Below are positions 7,842-24,476 of a stretch of 64,000 nt of DNA, piece by piece. The stretch comes from Thiotrichales bacterium 19S9-11 (GTDB lineage Bacteria > Pseudomonadota > Gammaproteobacteria > Francisellales > Francisellaceae): contig JAKJJT010000001.1 of the NCBI GenBank assembly GCA_021713395.1, forward strand, positions 372,001 to 436,000. Reading direction: 5' to 3'. Every line of letters starts with the position of its first letter. Positions within the stretch are counted from its first letter, which is position 1. The notes below the pieces were generated by a model. It did not search any database. It had not been told where the DNA came from and saw only the letters and a program-made list of their open reading frames with translations. A program made the translations under genes and the position numbers.

Positions 7842-10800
7842 TTGATTAAACAGCGAGGGCGCATAACGTTTTTGATTTTATCATTAGTGCTAACTATAAC
7901 ACTTATGCTTTTAGTTATAACTTCACTATTAACTTGGGGTTTGATCCGTTATGATAAAGAGTTATCGAATTATTTATCAGAAAAATTAGATACAGAAATC
8001 AAGTTAGATTTAACAGATGTTTCTTGGGATGGCATTAATCCAGTATTTAAGTTTAAAACAATTGATGTTAGTTTAGGTTCATCTGAATTTTCAAGCCGTT
8101 TAAATGGTTTAAGTGTTAAAATTAGCCCTTGGCAATCATTAACATCATGGAAAATTGCATCAAGTCAAGTCACTGTTGATTATTTAGAAGTTAACTTAAA
8201 AGTAAAACCATCATTGCCCGATAAAAAAAACGCACACTTAAGTACCATTCCTATTTCAACTAATATAATTGCTGCTATAGAGGAAGCTGACTATCATCTA
8301 GGCATACTTTTAGACTATCTTGAGGATGTTAAACCAGAATTAAAAATTAGCCATTTAAAGCTTAACCTATATGGTGCTAATAATAAGCAAATAGCATTGA
8401 TGGGCACAGCCGCTATAGCAAAGCTTACGAAAGAGAGTTATCGACTTAAGGCTGATTTAATAACAGCTTTAAAAAAGAGTCATCTATTGTTAAATGTAGA
8501 CATATCTCGCATTAATCATTTAGCTCGAGTTGATGGATATTTCCAGGTCAAAATTAAAGATTTAAATAAAGCAGTTCAATTTTTAAATTTGGATATGTTA
8601 GCAATTTATGGGCGCCAAGTTATTACTGATGGTTATATTCATTTTCAACCGCATCAACAATCACACTTAGATGCCAGAGTTTATGCGAACGATTTAGTTA
8701 TTAAGAATCATAATCTTAATACACAATTAAACTTAAATCAGGCCTCAGTGCGTTTAGGGCTTAATTATAATAAAGATGGAGAGCTAAGCTTAAATATTAA
8801 ACCAGATAAGTTAGTGATTAATAATAAGGAGCCTCTGTTAAAGCAGATTTTCATTCACTATCAACCAAGTATAGACTTAAGTTGGAAAGTAAAACTTAAA
8901 CAATTACAGTTGCATGTGCTAGTTGATATCCAAAAAATATTACCAAATAATTTAATTCCTTATTCTGTGAGGACTTATGTCAGCCCAGAGAAGCTAAATG
9001 GTGTAGTAAATATGTTAGAGATTAAATATGGTGGCTTAACTGGTTTAAAACCACTATTTTCTCTTACAGCTAAGTTTTTAGATATCAATTACTTAAATGA
9101 CAAGCATGGCATTAATTTGGAGAATGCTAGTGGAAGTTTGATAATGAATAGCGCAAATGGGAGTTTAGATATTAATGCCAATTCGTTGCAAGTTAAACAG
9201 TCTTTTTTAGGGATGAAAAACTTGCCTAAAGCAAGTGTAAAAATTAGAGGAGAGTGGCGCTTTAATCATGACTTACTATCACTTAATGTAAAATCACTAT
9301 TACTAAAGGGACAATGGTTTAGCTTAACAACACAAGGCGATATTTTTTGGAATATTAATAACCCTTTGCCTAGCGTAAATCTTATATCTGAGCTTAAAGC
9401 AAATCAGATAAAGCAACCGCAAGTTCGTAGCTTTCTACCCAAAGAGGTTATCATTCCTAAACTATATGACTGGTTATATTATAGCATTGATGGTGCCGAT
9501 TCAGTTAAAGCAAAATTAGTTTTAAAAGGAAATTTAGAAAAGTTCCCTTTTGAAGATGAATCAGGCATCTTTGATCTTAAAGCAACAGCATTTAATGCGC
9601 GTTTATCACCTTGGTATGACTGGCCGATGATTAAGGTGGCAAAGGGGAGTTTAGCATTTAAAAATGAAATGTTTAAGGTCAGTGCTTTACAAGCTAAAAC
9701 AAGAAATGTGGACATACTACCATCAACATTAATGATAAAAGATATTCGTCCTAAGGTCGTATCAGATATGTTGGTAAAAATAAATATGAAATCAGATGCA
9801 CAAGCAGCAAAAGACTATATACAAAATTCTCCCGTAGTTAATGAAACAGCCGATTGGTTCAAATTAATGAATTATAATGGAGATATAATATCTCAAGTTA
9901 CGTTAAAATTGCCATTAGGAAATCAAGACCCAATGACAGTTGATGGTTATGTTAAGCTTCTTAATGGTTTACTAGAGTTTAAGTTTTTACCTTTTTGGAC
10001 AATATACGGATATCATACACAAGGTGAAGTTTGGTTTAATGAAAAGAAAACGACAGGTTTATCTTTGGATGGGTGGTTAGGCTTAAACGCGCCATTTAGT
10101 TTTAAATTTAATTATATTACTGATGATCAATTTACTATTGATGCTGATACAACTATTTCTAGCAAAATATATATGCCTAAAAAAATTCAATCAAAGATTA
10201 AAGGGCAGAGTAAAATTCATTTAGTAGCATCAGGTAATAAAAATAGTGGTAAGGTTAAAATATTTTCAGACTTAAAGGGCGTTTCTTTTAACTTTCCAGA
10301 ACCTCTGGTTAAGTTAAACAAGGAATTTGGTCAACCACTAACGCTAAACGCAAACTGGCTGATAAATAAAGATAAAATCAGTTTATTTAAATTTAATACG
10401 TCACTTAAAGATCAATTTGATATAAGCTCTAACTTAGGAGTGGATCCGAAATTTTTAAGCTTATCTGGTAATATAAAGGCAATTAATTTAGATCAGTGGT
10501 TTAATTTATTAAATGTAAATAATGATGCATTTGACCAGTTTTTTGTAGATAGACTTTTAACGGTACCAGTAGATCAAAAACAAAGCTTGGAATTTATATT
10601 TATTAAGTCTATTCCATATGCATCAAGTCAGCTGTTAACTTGGTTAATTAAAGAATATACTCCAAAGATTAATATATCATTTGATCAGGTATCTTTTCTT
10701 TCACAAGGGTTTAATAAATTAAACATTAGCACGATATCAAAAGATAACCGTTGGTTATTAGATTTAAGTTCACCTAATCAAATTGATGCTTCACTTGAAG

Positions 10801-11714
10801 TCATACTTAATAAGATATCACCATGGAAGTTAAACGTTGGTTTGTTGAGTTTAAGAAAGTTTGACCTTAATCATAGCTTAAGTAACTTTAGTGATAATAT
10901 AGTTGGAGTTCCTTTCTGGTTGCCTTCAGCTGTAATATCCATTAAGCAGTTGATGTATCAGTCCAAACTTTTGATCAATGAAGCTAAAATAACGATTGAC
11001 CATAAAGATCATCAAATAAAAATACCAACATACTATATAAAAGGGCCTGACATCTTCGTTTTGGGTAATGCAAACTGGAATGAAAATAATAATAAAGTAG
11101 AATTAAATGGTAGTGCAACATCTGATAGTTGGGGGCGCTTTTTTGCAAGTCTTGAACTATATAATATGGTTGATCAAGGTCAAGGGTTGTTTTCATATCA
11201 GTTAAGTTGGTTCGGAGGCTTAACTCCCCAGCCAAATACATTAGATGGACAGTTTATGTTTGGTATTTCTATTGGTAGTTTTCCAAGTATAAAGCCTGGA
11301 GTTGCTAAGCTTGTCGGAGTATTTAGTTTAGAAGCAATGATTGATCGTATTGGCTCAGGCATTAATGATCTAGATAGTAAAGGGCTTTATTTTAATCAAA
11401 TTTATGGTAATTATGAAATTAAAAGAGGTATTGCAAAGGCGACAAAACCAGTGATAGTTGATTCACCATCATTTGATCTGAAAGTCTCAGGTAAAATTGA
11501 CTTTTCTCAAAAACTTATTGACCAAACAATTACAATACAACCACATTTATCAGGGACAATGGCCATGGCTGCAGGTCTGATAGGTGGGCCTGTTGCAGGG
11601 TTAGCGACTTATATTGTTGATAAATTAGCAATGGCATCTATTTTGAAAAATCAAGGAATTGCAAAGGTTAGAGTTTCTGGTGCTTGGGATGGGCCTGAGG
11701 TGGAAATTAACTAA
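7842..11714 (+). CDS. yhdP: YhdP-family (AsmA/TamB-like) envelope protein
   Basis: Very large AsmA-like protein of 1290 residues. In enterobacteria YhdP, TamB and YdbH act together in phospholipid transport between inner and outer membranes. One N-terminal membrane segment at about residues 10-33 anchors it. The rest is a long repetitive beta-rich periplasmic domain ending in the conserved LIDQTITIQPHLSG and AGLIGGPVAGLATYIVDKL region typical of DUF3971/AsmA C-termini. The start is a TTG at 7842, preceded by AAGTAAGG; no ATG lies nearby in frame. The gene closes the maf-rng-yhdP operon. The next gene has its own promoter. Confidence 0.92.
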   Translation: MIKQRGRITFLILSLVLTITLMLLVITSLLTWGLIRYDKELSNYLSEKLDTEIKLDLTDVSWDGINPVFKFKTIDVSLGSSEFSSRLNGLSVKISPWQSLTSWKIASSQVTVDYLEVNLKVKPSLPDKKNAHLSTIPISTNIIAAIEEADYHLGILLDYLEDVKPELKISHLKLNLYGANNKQIALMGTAAIAKLTKESYRLKADLITALKKSHLLLNVDISRINHLARVDGYFQVKIKDLNKAVQFLNLDMLAIYGRQVITDGYIHFQPHQQSHLDARVYANDLVIKNHNLNTQLNLNQASVRLGLNYNKDGELSLNIKPDKLVINNKEPLLKQIFIHYQPSIDLSWKVKLKQLQLHVLVDIQKILPNNLIPYSVRTYVSPEKLNGVVNMLEIKYGGLTGLKPLFSLTAKFLDINYLNDKHGINLENASGSLIMNSANGSLDINANSLQVKQSFLGMKNLPKASVKIRGEWRFNHDLLSLNVKSLLLKGQWFSLTTQGDIFWNINNPLPSVNLISELKANQIKQPQVRSFLPKEVIIPKLYDWLYYSIDGADSVKAKLVLKGNLEKFPFEDESGIFDLKATAFNARLSPWYDWPMIKVAKGSLAFKNEMFKVSALQAKTRNVDILPSTLMIKDIRPKVVSDMLVKINMKSDAQAAKDYIQNSPVVNETADWFKLMNYNGDIISQVTLKLPLGNQDPMTVDGYVKLLNGLLEFKFLPFWTIYGYHTQGEVWFNEKKTTGLSLDGWLGLNAPFSFKFNYITDDQFTIDADTTISSKIYMPKKIQSKIKGQSKIHLVASGNKNSGKVKIFSDLKGVSFNFPEPLVKLNKEFGQPLTLNANWLINKDKISLFKFNTSLKDQFDISSNLGVDPKFLSLSGNIKAINLDQWFNLLNVNNDAFDQFFVDRLLTVPVDQKQSLEFIFIKSIPYASSQLLTWLIKEYTPKINISFDQVSFLSQGFNKLNISTISKDNRWLLDLSSPNQIDASLEVILNKISPWKLNVGLLSLRKFDLNHSLSNFSDNIVGVPFWLPSAVISIKQLMYQSKLLINEAKITIDHKDHQIKIPTYYIKGPDIFVLGNANWNENNNKVELNGSATSDSWGRFFASLELYNMVDQGQGLFSYQLSWFGGLTPQPNTLDGQFMFGISIGSFPSIKPGVAKLVGVFSLEAMIDRIGSGINDLDSKGLYFNQIYGNYEIKRGIAKATKPVIVDSPSFDLKVSGKIDFSQKLIDQTITIQPHLSGTMAMAAGLIGGPVAGLATYIVDKLAMASILKNQGIAKVRVSGAWDGPEVEIN

Positions 11715-11744: not shown

Positions 11745-11778
11745 TTGTAATATTTTTGTAATATTATTAGGATAAAAT
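11745..11778 (+). promoter_or_regulatory. Candidate PhoB box plus -10 of the phosphonate operon
   Basis: Two identical TTGTAAT heptamers at 11745-11751 and 11756-11762 are separated by 4 bases, the geometry of a PhoB box (heptamer repeats with an 11-base period, consensus CTGTCAT). TAAAAT at 11773-11778 begins exactly 10 bases after the box, where PhoB-dependent promoters place the -10. An alternative sigma-70 reading is TTGTAA at 11756 and TATACT at 11778 with a 16-base spacer. The surrounding region is very AT-rich, so chance matches are possible. The downstream gene content (PhnY/PhnZ-like) makes phosphate control plausible. Confidence 0.5.
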
Positions 11779-11832
11779 ATACTCATTTGTTGATGGATAT
11801 ACGTTTATACTTTCAATAATTGGGAAGAAAGA

Positions 11833-13164
11833 ATGGACTCTAGCGCAACTAAAATATCAGAACAATCTTTAGTTAGACTTGTGTGGGTCGTTGGTTCACT
11901 TGGCCTATTTGTTGATGGCTATATGCTTTATATTAGTTCAATTGCATTACCATTTATTCATCAAGAGTTTAAGCTAAGTGATCTAGAGCTAGGTTTAATT
12001 CAGTCAGCGGCTCCCATTGGTGCTGCGATTGGTGCAATTATTATTGGTAGACTATCAGATAAAGTTGGTCGTAAATCAATGCTTATTTTTAACTTAATGT
12101 TTTTTGTGGGTATTGCAATTTTATCAGCACTAGCTTGGGATATTATCTCACTTATTGTGTTTCGATTTTTAGTTGGTATTGGTGTTGGTATGGATTATCC
12201 AATTTGTGCTGCTTATATGGCAGAAATGACACCTAAGAACAAATCAGGCCAGTATATGGCAAAAGCAATGTTTATTAATTGCCTAGCATCACCTGTTGGT
12301 GTTTTAGTTGCGTGGGGAATATTTAGTATTTATCCGGAGATTGACGTCTGGCGATGGATGTTTTTATCTTGTGCTATACCTGCGATTATAGCATTAACTT
12401 TAAGGTCTCGTTTGCCTGAAAGTTTTATGTGGAAAGCGCATCAGAAACTATTGAGAAAACGCGGGAATATAAATGATGTTAAACATTATCGCACTTTGTT
12501 TAGCAAAAAATATCTGTTTGCGACCATAGGTTTTTGTGGAGTTTGGTTCTTAATGGATATTGCTTATTATGGTATAGGCCTATTTACACCACTAATACTT
12601 AAATCGTTACATGTGGGAATTGATGGCAATTTCTTAACATCAGCCTCTGATGTAATTAAAAGCACGTTATATGTCAATATCTTTGTTATGTTGGGTGCAT
12701 TTGTATCAATTTGGGCAATCCAAAAAATAGATAACACTCAATTACAAAAAATGGGGTTGTTATTGTCATTTGTTGGGCTTTTGATGCTTGCTTTTAGTTT
12801 TACAGAAAGCAAGTCACTAAATTTAAGCTTAGTTTTTACTGGATTTATTATATTTAACTTTTTTATTAACCTAGGTCCAGGCATTACAACTTATTCTTTG
12901 CCAGCTCAATTTTATCCAACAGAAATTAGAGCAACAGGGCATGGCCTTGCTGCAGGTATTGCAAAAATTGGTGCGTTTTTAGGTGCAATGTTTTTACCTT
13001 TATTAGCACGCACAATAGGTATTTATATGGCAGTTGGTATGACAGCAGTGGCGCTTTTGGTAGCTTATGTATTGTGTGGGCTTATTCCTAGAAACTATTC
13101 TATTATAGAGACAGAAAGTAAAGATGATTTGATAACGGGAGAAAGGGATGCACTACCAACTTAA
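11833..13164 (+). CDS. MFS transporter, candidate phosphonate/phosphate-type carrier
   Basis: Inner-membrane secondary transporter of 443 residues with about 12 hydrophobic segments. The MFS loop signature GRLSDKVGRKS lies near residues 74-84. GVGMDYPICAAYMAE near residues 119-133 resembles the GxGxGxDYP stretch of phosphate:H+ symporters and sugar-porter-like MFS, which led me to suggest a phosphate-ester or phosphonate substrate. The start at 11833 follows GGGAAGAAAG. The last 17 bases overlap the next gene (PhnY-like), so the two are translationally linked. The substrate is inferred from context and not proven. Confidence 0.75.
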   Translation: MDSSATKISEQSLVRLVWVVGSLGLFVDGYMLYISSIALPFIHQEFKLSDLELGLIQSAAPIGAAIGAIIIGRLSDKVGRKSMLIFNLMFFVGIAILSALAWDIISLIVFRFLVGIGVGMDYPICAAYMAEMTPKNKSGQYMAKAMFINCLASPVGVLVAWGIFSIYPEIDVWRWMFLSCAIPAIIALTLRSRLPESFMWKAHQKLLRKRGNINDVKHYRTLFSKKYLFATIGFCGVWFLMDIAYYGIGLFTPLILKSLHVGIDGNFLTSASDVIKSTLYVNIFVMLGAFVSIWAIQKIDNTQLQKMGLLLSFVGLLMLAFSFTESKSLNLSLVFTGFIIFNFFINLGPGITTYSLPAQFYPTEIRATGHGLAAGIAKIGAFLGAMFLPLLARTIGIYMAVGMTAVALLVAYVLCGLIPRNYSIIETESKDDLITGERDALPT

Positions 13165-13960
13165 TCAAGAGCAATTAAAATTTTGGGAAGCTAATGGTTT
13201 TATTAAAATTACAGATTTTTTGACTGAAAGTCAGAAAAAAAACTTAAAACAATGGAGCCAAGAAGTTGAAAGTTTGCCGGAAATACCAGGTAAGTGGATG
13301 AAGTATTTTGAAACAAATAACCAAGGAGAAAGAGTACTTTGTCGAGTTGAAAATTTTATTGACTACCACCTAAACTTTAAGTTGCTTGCAAATAGTAAAA
13401 AAGCAATTGATTTACTTTCACAATTAATGGGTGAAAAAGCTGTTTTATTTAAAGAAAAAATTAATTGTAAGTCCCCAGGAAGTAATGGTTTTGCGCCACA
13501 CCAAGATGCACCTGCATTTATAAGTTTTGGACAAACTTACCATATCACAATGATGTTAGCAATTGATGATGCGACTATTGAAAATGGTTGTTTAGAGTTA
13601 ATCGAAAAACATCCATTTTATAAGCATACATTGCCACAGAATACAGATGGATCAATTACAGAAGATTATACGAGTCAATTTCAGTGGCAACCAGTTGAGT
13701 GTTCTTCTGGTGATGTTATATTATTTGATTCTTATATTCCGCATTACTCAAAATCTAATCAAAGTAACCAATCAAGAAGGGCAGCTTTTATCACTTATAG
13801 TAAGCTCTCTGAAGGTGAGTCAAAACGAGAAGCCTATTTTAAGGATAAAAGAGAGAAGTTTCCACCTGATTGTGAAAGAGATCCAGACAAAGACTATAGT
13901 GAAGGCGCAATGGTTTATAATGTTGCAAATCCAATTAAGATTAAGGCAGATGCTAACTAG
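13148..13960 (+). CDS. phnY: PhyH-family Fe(II)/2-oxoglutarate dioxygenase, PhnY/TmpA-like
   Basis: Predicted to hydroxylate the carbon next to phosphorus of a 2-aminoethylphosphonate or its N-trimethyl form, making the substrate of the HD oxygenase encoded next. The 270 residues fit PhnY/TmpA. The iron triad is visible as H118-x-D120 (HQDAPAF) and H199 (IPHYSKS); R210 or R211 in SRRAAF would hold 2-oxoglutarate. CRVENFIDYH at residues 65-74 resembles the substrate-side segment of this subfamily. The start overlaps the MFS gene by 17 bases, with GGGAGAAAGG before ATG at 13148. The choice between 2-AEP and TMAEP cannot be made by eye. The symbol is assigned by family and operon context. Confidence 0.72.
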   Translation: MHYQLNQEQLKFWEANGFIKITDFLTESQKKNLKQWSQEVESLPEIPGKWMKYFETNNQGERVLCRVENFIDYHLNFKLLANSKKAIDLLSQLMGEKAVLFKEKINCKSPGSNGFAPHQDAPAFISFGQTYHITMMLAIDDATIENGCLELIEKHPFYKHTLPQNTDGSITEDYTSQFQWQPVECSSGDVILFDSYIPHYSKSNQSNQSRRAAFITYSKLSEGESKREAYFKDKREKFPPDCERDPDKDYSEGAMVYNVANPIKIKADAN

Positions 13961-13978
13961 CATCAGAAGGTGTGGCAA

Positions 13979-14938
13979 ATGGACGATCAAGTAAAAAAAC
14001 AAATTAATAAAGCAAAGCAAGCACTCCTTCATAATTCACAATCTGATTATATTGGAGAAGCTATATCTCAATTAGAGCATGTTATTGAGTGTGGCCACTT
14101 TGCTAAAGAGTCTAACCACTCTGATGAAGTGATTGTTGCATCTTTATTTCATGATATTGGTCATTATGCTGAAAATCTTCCAAGACCTAAAATGGGCAAT
14201 TTAGGCGTTTTACATCATGAGTGGGTGGGTGGTAAAATTTTAAGAGAATTAGGTTTTAATAGAAAAGTCTGTAGTCTGGTTCGTTATCATGTCGAAGCTA
14301 AACGTTATTTATCAGGTAAAAAAAACCGGTATTATGCAAACCTCTCAGATGCAAGTAAAGGCACCTTGAGCTTCCAGGGAGGTCCAATGTCAATTGATGA
14401 GATTAAAAGTTTTGAAAATCACCCTTGGTTTAGAGAAATTATTCAAGTTAGAGTTAATGATGAAAAAAGCAAACTTCAGGACTTTTACTTGCCAAGCATT
14501 GATAGTTTTGATGAGCATTTAATTAACTGCTTAGATTCTAGTTTATTAGAATTAAAATCTAGAACAGATTTTTATATTATGGGTATCGAGGATTATACAA
14601 ACTTTAATTATCAAGTATTAGAAAAGAAGTTATCCAGTGTAATTAATGCTAATGATATTGATATTATTTTAATATCAAGTGAAGCTTTTAAGTATATTGA
14701 CTGTAGTAATAAAGTTTATCATGGACTTCAAGAGGTTACCTATATTGAGCCATTGTTAGATACTGAAATTAATTACTATGATACGTTAATCATAGATGGG
14801 CTTATTACCAACGCATTAAATTCAATGCTTTCATCATATGTATTTATTACGGATCAACGAAATGGCATATATTTAAATCAGTATTTATTAGATAAAAAAA
14901 TAAATAATTTACACATTGAATTATTAATACTTCAATAA
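13979..14938 (+). CDS. phnZ: PhnZ-like HD-domain diiron oxygenase with extra C-terminal domain
   Basis: Mixed-valent diiron HD oxygenase predicted to cleave a 1-hydroxy-2-aminoethylphosphonate to phosphate plus glycine (or betaine). The start is the ATG at 13979 after AGAAGG; a GTG at 13970 overlaps that ribosome site and is less likely. In the resulting 319 residues the positions match those I recall for PhnZ: H34, H58-D59, H80, H104 and D161 as metal ligands, Y24 and E27 as the gate (DYIGE), and H62, K108, S126, Q133 and R158 around the phosphonate. Residues from about 166 to 319 form an additional domain I do not recognise; PhnZ proteins normally end near residue 190. The gene lies 18 bases after the dioxygenase gene. 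Confidence 0.8.
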   Translation: MDDQVKKQINKAKQALLHNSQSDYIGEAISQLEHVIECGHFAKESNHSDEVIVASLFHDIGHYAENLPRPKMGNLGVLHHEWVGGKILRELGFNRKVCSLVRYHVEAKRYLSGKKNRYYANLSDASKGTLSFQGGPMSIDEIKSFENHPWFREIIQVRVNDEKSKLQDFYLPSIDSFDEHLINCLDSSLLELKSRTDFYIMGIEDYTNFNYQVLEKKLSSVINANDIDIILISSEAFKYIDCSNKVYHGLQEVTYIEPLLDTEINYYDTLIIDGLITNALNSMLSSYVFITDQRNGIYLNQYLLDKKINNLHIELLILQ

Positions 14939-24011: not shown

Positions 24012-24476
24012 ATGCAGCGACATCTTTATAAGATTTGTTCTATTTTAATTAGTTGTTTAATTATTTTTTCACCGAATGCTTTATTTGCTCAAAAGAGTAA
24101 TAAGGCAATTCATACTGTGATGTCACCATCTAGAATTGTTGTATTAGATAAAAGTATTTTGGAAGATCTAATGTTATTAGATATAAAGCCAATTGCTTAT
24201 GTTGGTGTAATGCCACACTTTTTGCAAAGTCGCTTAGCTGGCGTGACTAACTTTGATCTTATTGATAATCAGGTATTGCATGATATATCTAATTTAGAGC
24301 CTGACTTGATCATTGGTAATAATAAGATGCCTAAAAGTTTAATGACACAGTTAGAGAAAATTGCACCAACAATGCAATTGTCAGCAACAGAACAGATAGA
24401 AAACATAAAGATATTAGGTATTATGGTTCAAAAAGAAGCAAAAGCAAAAGCAATTATTAAAGGCTTGAGGCAATAA
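24012..24476 (+). CDS. Half-length periplasmic binding protein (FecB/BtuF-like N-lobe)
   Basis: A 154-residue secreted protein with a signal peptide (about residues 1-26, ending NALFA). It is followed by an N-terminal lobe of a helical-backbone metal or siderophore binding protein: PSRIVVLDKSILEDLMLLDIKPIAYVG and NLEPDLIIGN are characteristic. Full-length members have about 300 residues; here the frame ends in the connecting helix (MVQKEAKAKAIIKGLRQ) and the second lobe is absent, because bamE begins 7 bases later on the other strand. It could be a decayed gene or a functional short form. fur lies 0.5 kb away. Confidence 0.65.
   Translation: MQRHLYKICSILISCLIIFSPNALFAQKSNKAIHTVMSPSRIVVLDKSILEDLMLLDIKPIAYVGVMPHFLQSRLAGVTNFDLIDNQVLHDISNLEPDLIIGNNKMPKSLMTQLEKIAPTMQLSATEQIENIKILGIMVQKEAKAKAIIKGLRQ

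Follow-up and report, generated by a model that had tools for sequence, protein, structure and literature searches.

Oxidative pathways for phosphonate breakdown pair a 2-oxoglutarate (2OG)-dependent hydroxylase with an HD-domain oxygenase, and the described pairs differ in their substrates. PhnY* and PhnZ of the uncultured bacterium HF130_AEPn_1 oxidize 2-aminoethylphosphonate (2-AEP), GmPhnY/GmPhnZ of Gimesia and PhnYZ of Prochlorococcus act on methylphosphonate, and TmpA/TmpB of Leisingera act on trimethyl-AEP; in fungi, PhnY and PhnZ are fused in a single protein, PhoF. Such catabolism has been discussed mostly for marine plankton. Here we analyzed a 64,000-nt stretch (the window) from Thiotrichales bacterium 19S9-11, whose 2.05-Mb genome (29 contigs) belongs to the same family, Francisellaceae, as Facilibium subflavum. 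The window holds a three-gene operon that likely serves phosphate scavenging: under Pho control, 2-AEP would be taken up and oxidized by enzymes of the PhnY*/PhnZ type to phosphate and glycine, with (R)-1-hydroxy-2-aminoethylphosphonate [(R)-HAEP] as a possible direct substrate; we infer the substrate from the kinship of the enzymes. On the PhnZ side, the only side compared, the locus shares with the HF130_AEPn_1 system the quoted active-site residues, the clade and the core fold, and it likewise has a 2OG-hydroxylase partner, but it differs in having its own major facilitator superfamily (MFS) carrier, a Pho box and a C-terminal domain of ~130 residues. The pathway is thus a known one, and what is added here is the evidence for Pho control, the C-terminal domain, and a distribution wider than had been supposed.

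The initial annotation of this DNA had proposed an operon in which an MFS carrier gene is followed by genes for a PhyH-family dioxygenase and an HD-domain oxygenase. Three open reading frames on the plus strand bear out that order and those family calls, including the 17-base overlap between the first two genes (13148–13164) and the 18-base gap before the third (13961–13978). The features of the locus are as follows.

11745–11762, plus strand: Pho box TTGTAAT-ATTT-TTGTAAT, a predicted, probable PhoB binding site, found with a pst-promoter matrix.
11773–11778, plus strand: −10-like hexamer TAAAAT, separated from the Pho box by 10 bp.
11833–13164, plus strand: MFS carrier, probable phosphonate importer (443 aa; Pfam MFS_1, E = 3e-38).
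13148–13960, plus strand: PhyH-family Fe(II)/2OG oxygenase, a PhnY*-type hydroxylase (270 aa; Pfam PhyH, E = 1.2e-25).
13979–14938, plus strand: HD-domain diiron oxygenase of PhnZ type with an extra C-terminal domain (319 aa from the ATG; Pfam HD, E = 1e-7).
13979–14536, plus strand: PhnZ catalytic core of the HD protein, residues 1–186 (AlphaFold2 model and Foldseek match to 4n71).
14543–14935, plus strand: C-terminal α/β domain of the HD protein, residues 189–319, possibly an eroded histidine-phosphatase domain (low-confidence models).

An alternative GTG start at 13970 would add 3 aa to the HD protein. For comparison we used loci from Facilibium (G007/L003), a Francisella-like genome (G027), a Francisellaceae metagenome-assembled genome (MAG; L006), and a Legionellaceae genome (L110), together with Legionella genomes assigned to that genus by their grouping with L. 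steelei (L008).

The HD protein is a PhnZ-type HD diiron oxygenase that, judging by its complete PhnZ active site, would cleave a C–P bond. The metal ligand set H...HD...H...H...D is entire (H34, H58, D59, H80, H104, and D161) and, as the initial annotation had stated, these residues and Y24 and E27 hold in PhnZ numbering. The latter two form the YxxE gate, a feature of PhnZ (PMC8177086), and are invariant in 26 homologues. H62, K108, S126, T129, Q133, and R158 are also identical to PhnZ, and across positions 22–177 the two proteins share 71 of 156 residues (46%). In searches of the PDB by sequence (phmmer), PhnZ (1.2e-41) and TmpB (2.5e-29) were the only matches, and by fold they were the only strong ones. 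The AlphaFold2 model of the core is confident and superimposes on the substrate-bound PhnZ structure, 4n71, with a Foldseek TMt of 0.93 and a root-mean-square deviation of 1.7 Å. No relatives of the HD protein were found in the viral contigs searched.

Three maximum-likelihood trees, containing the window HD protein, its Francisellaceae and Legionellaceae relatives, crystal PhnZ, and TmpB, place the HD proteins in one clade with crystal PhnZ and apart from TmpB (support 100/97, 100/100, and 100/99). Clustering with phosphohydrolases or MIOX, the grouping that the initial annotation had regarded as decisive against it, did not occur, given that PhnZ and TmpB were the sole strong PDB matches by sequence and fold; MIOX and the hydrolases were not rows of the trees. 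PhnZ1-like sequences (e.g., from Dietzia) were present in the later trees and fall outside the HD/PhnZ clade, the characterized PhnZ1 itself not being a row.

These comparisons bear on the trimethyl-AEP branch of the initial annotation, which had allowed for cleavage of either 2-AEP or its trimethyl form. The PhnZ-type HD oxygenase, the PhnY-type 2OG oxygenase, and the carrier all found support, but the TmpA/TmpB option did not. In that pathway trimethyl-AEP would yield glycine betaine and phosphate, and the window HD protein does resemble TmpB in being an HD oxygenase with the YxxE gate, scoring 138 bits against the TmpB model NF049941 (cut-off 300). Forcing the HD clade together with TmpB, however, worsened the tree by 41.7 log units and was rejected (approximately unbiased test, P = 0.0005). 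Moreover, TmpA is a BBOX-type enzyme of the γ-butyrobetaine hydroxylase clade (PMC9296572) and not a PhyH-family protein, which disfavors the trimethyl-AEP branch, and the PhyH protein of the window has no match to the TmpA model. We therefore consider a TmpA/TmpB pathway very improbable.

Because PhnY* is highly substrate-specific and PhnZ somewhat tolerant (PMC10574752), the hydroxylase probably sets the substrate of the operon. The 2OG-oxygenase triad of the PhyH protein (H118-x-D120 and H199) and the 2OG arginine, R210, are invariant in eight aligned sequences, among them that of an actinobacterial phyH-HD pair. That pair lies on a Dietzia plasmid (L209:3117–4507); its PhyH protein best matches the methylphosphonate hydroxylase model and its HD protein matches the PhnZ1 model well, although neither score reaches the cut-off. 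Alphaproteobacterial PhyH relatives (~40% identity) have no HD gene within ~1.5 kb on each side and are therefore probably other PhyH enzymes. In the Francisellaceae MAG, phyH (L006:4177–4980) is interrupted by an in-frame stop, either a sequencing error or early decay.

The gene preceding phyH encodes a probable phosphonate importer, a role assigned from gene order. Carrier orthologues ~46–67% identical to it precede phyH in the Facilibium, G027, and Legionellaceae loci, and in L006 the phyH and HD genes instead follow a PgtP/GlpT-type carrier; the pairing of these enzymes with two different kinds of carrier supports a role in uptake. There is precedent for an MFS carrier tied to phosphonate catabolism in AepP, the 2-AEP permease of Pseudomonas putida BIRD-1. 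However, AepP belongs to a GlpT-related family (PMC8316502), represented here by L006 alone, whereas the window carrier is nearest to aromatic-acid symporters. It is thus a candidate phosphonate transporter outside the AepP type.

Evidence for phosphate control comes from the start of the locus. Position 11745, where the initial annotation began its operon, is the first base of a direct repeat of two 7-bp units with an 11-bp period, the layout of a Pho box. In each of seven related Francisellaceae genomes, 13 of 14 fixed positions of the motif were matched just upstream of the pst genes, 50–54 bp before the called pstC start in five of the seven; in the other two (L190 and L191) it varies with the choice of start codon. 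A matrix built from these pst sites only ranks the window site first among the 127,966 positions of the 64-kb stretch, at 19.3 bits with the next best at 9.5, and finds a stronger site (23.0 bits), TTGTAATAATACTGTAAC, before the Facilibium operon. The 10-bp spacing between the Pho box and the −10-like hexamer occurs in eight of nine promoters (offsets of 6–16 scored, with ties given to 10). The bare repeat, allowing ≤2 mismatches, is no commoner genome-wide than its reversed pattern (55+49 vs. 50+46 sites); of the two approaches, it was the pst-trained matrix alone that proved informative. The genome also encodes PhoR (373 bits) and PstB (359 bits), both over cut-off, and beside PhoR a PhoB-like regulator under it (264 bits; cut-off 296.2). 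Collectively, the Pho box, PhoR, the PhoB-like regulator, and Pst support the phosphate-starvation control that the initial annotation had suggested, and the shared motif indicates that the operon is probably Pho-controlled, through PhoB binding at 11745–11762. The repeat also provides a proposed Pho-box sequence for the Francisellaceae. No Pho box was found in the examined operon promoters of Legionella, G027, and L006. This agrees with the lack of a PstB over cut-off in G027 and in the Legionellaceae genomes searched for it, four in number (the L006 genome was not searched); control of the operon therefore differs among lineages.

Taken together, these features suggest the following scheme. 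At low phosphate, PhoR/PhoB would activate the operon through the Pho box, as the motif shared with the pst promoters implies, and the MFS carrier, going by its place in the gene order, would import 2-AEP or a close aminophosphonate. Using Fe(II), O2, and 2OG, the PhyH enzyme would, as expected of its family, hydroxylate the carbon adjoining phosphorus to give (R)-HAEP. The HD enzyme, using a mixed-valence diiron centre gated by Y24 and E27, would then cleave the C–P bond with O2 to release phosphate and glycine, as its PhnZ active site predicts, and it could also accept (R)-HAEP directly.

Several points weigh against this scheme. None of the family models reaches its curated cut-off for the operon enzymes, the window HD protein scoring 160 bits against the general phosphonate HD oxygenase model TIGR03276 (cut-off 214.6), so we regard it as a divergent PhnZ; PhnZ itself sits on a long branch in the trees. 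The nearest NCBIfam model of the carrier is the aromatic-acid:H+ symporter family (168 bits, below the cut-off of 419), and we know of no member of that group that moves phosphonates. The search pattern for Pho boxes, which preceded the matrix, was itself partly suggested by the window site and accepted that site's variant. The best NCBIfam model of the PhyH protein is that of the methylphosphonate hydroxylase (NF052437, 208 bits), and the comparison, which included neither PhnY* (ACU83549) nor a tested PhnZ1, bears only indirectly on the PhnY* assignment and on methylphosphonate as the substrate. Of all the steps that lead to 2-AEP, the specificity of the hydroxylase is the least secure.

The last of these points raises the question of a methylphosphonate pathway like those of Gimesia and Prochlorococcus (PhnY1/PhnZ1 type), yielding formate and phosphate. 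These systems use the same kinds of enzyme and the same chemistry, the Gimesia hydroxylase corresponds to the PhyH protein's best curated model, and Gimesia PhnZ is also able to cleave (R)-HAEP (PMC10574752). The 208-bit score, however, is far below the curated 500, and with no PhnY* model among the matches the ranking may reflect the models available. The HD protein groups with PhnZ and apart from the PhnZ1-like sequences, and against the PhnZ1 model, too, it scores far under cut-off, with 110 bits compared with 202 for the Dietzia HD protein. The window protein retains E27, the residue that in PhnZ touches the amine of the substrate, yet Dietzia also has a glutamate there. On balance, we give methylphosphonate only an outside chance and favor 2-AEP.

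The HD protein is ~130 residues longer than PhnZ and is therefore probably a two-domain protein, a point missed in the initial annotation; residues 189–319 have no counterpart in PhnZ. The nearest parallel is PhoF, in which a PhnZ-type domain likewise lies inside a larger protein, but PhoF joins two oxygenases, whereas here the partner is a different C-terminal domain. Pfam and NCBIfam gave nothing over cut-off for this domain, with only subthreshold matches to ATP-synthase F subunits. The Facilibium orthologue (L003:1444–2649) has a His_Phos_1 domain at the same place (Pfam E = 5e-13), with RHA, MRA, and THG motifs kept; here a PhnZ-type HD oxygenase and a histidine-phosphatase domain with seemingly intact catalytic motifs are combined in one protein. 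In the window protein, a test for the catalytic RH...R...H pattern found the RHG/RHA and THG motifs absent from residues 189–319, and the C-terminal domains of the window, G027, and L110 proteins all lack the histidine-phosphatase catalytic residues. These three and the Facilibium domain have in common a short S-[MV]-[LI]-x-x-Y segment close to the second of the catalytic histidines. Alignment of the window domain with that of Facilibium did not score above shuffled sequences (hhalign probability 0.1), and its low-confidence fold matches PGAM5 at Z = 6.7, listed among unrelated folds; the window genome has no histidine-phosphatase match at E ≤ 0.001. An eroded histidine phosphatase is thus plausible by position, though the pairwise, profile, and fold comparisons do not establish descent, and the domain in the window protein would probably be noncatalytic. 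A literature search combining PhnZ with "histidine phosphatase" (subscription papers and supplements lay outside its reach) found no report of such a fusion. In G027, a HAD-IB phosphatase gene (L002:784–1467) begins 12 bases after the HD gene; its best model is histidinol-phosphatase, under cut-off, and it may possibly be a separate stand-in for the fused phosphatase domain.

The operon could also act on another aminophosphonate, or serve in biosynthesis or detoxification, with the extra domain pointing to a different natural substrate such as a phosphorylated or esterified phosphonate. A phosphoester step is hinted at by the Facilibium histidine-phosphatase fusion and by the HAD-IB gene that follows the HD gene in G027, and the carrier is of a family unlike AepP. 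Most Legionella orthologues (~220 aa; 216–228 aa) and L006 (187 aa), however, have little or none of the extension and keep the enzyme pair all the same; in G027 and L110 it is shorter. We see a slim chance for such a function, and continue to prefer phosphate scavenging from 2-AEP.

The initial annotation had called such a pathway unusual in a possibly host-associated gammaproteobacterium, which holds for the organism's own family, where the HD gene is present in 3 of 30 genomes and missing from two of the same genus, but not for the Legionellaceae. A strong match to the HD clade occurs in 22 of 140 Legionellales genomes; in each of the 20 of these loci that were opened, phyH lies directly upstream, and nearly all show an MFS gene within the short stretch of DNA available. 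The order MFS-phyH-HD recurs in the Facilibium, G027, and Legionella loci. The G027 copy sits among transposase genes, and plasmid 3 of Aquicella lusitana (L208:4139–7689) carries an operon remnant, the start of an MFS gene joined to an N-terminally incomplete HD protein with no phyH, flanked by inverted copies of one transposase gene. Such patchiness, together with the transposase genes alongside, suggests that the genes have been both transferred and lost. Within the same limits, the literature search turned up no paper connecting PhnZ and phosphonate with either Legionella or Francisella. On a Hymenobacter plasmid (L211:1349–3525), an MFS gene precedes a gene for a phosphonate HD oxygenase, the annotation showing no phyH in between; a Na/Pi symporter and a TonB-linked receptor are encoded nearby.

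In the window, the operon is preceded by a long gene (7842–11714) and followed by queF (Pfam QueF). Farther away, 24012–24476 encodes a 154-aa protein that, judged by eye, looks like the beginning of a periplasmic binding protein of siderophore type and appears truncated.

Many members of the Legionellaceae live in protists. Because close copies of the operon are found in many Legionella genomes, it may serve to draw phosphorus from protists such as amoebae, hosts that can be rich in phosphonate. (R)-HAEP, the substrate of PhnZ, was first isolated from Acanthamoeba castellanii, and only seven phnY*Z clusters were found in a survey of 19,425 complete genomes (PMC8154272), while lipophosphonoglycan has been reported to make up 29% of the Acanthamoeba plasma membrane (PMC3284432); these observations make protist phosphonate an attractive hypothesis for the nutrient source. 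More tentatively, protist-associated gammaproteobacteria (Legionellaceae, Aquicella, and Francisellaceae relatives) might share an operon dedicated to host-derived aminophosphonate, such as amoebal lipophosphonoglycan or the ciliatine of ciliates, and obtain phosphate and glycine in this way while growing in the host or afterwards, an idea we hold to be possible but doubtful. The recurrence of the 2-AEP-type clade in lineages known from protists makes the mining of host phosphonate by intracellular bacteria directly testable.

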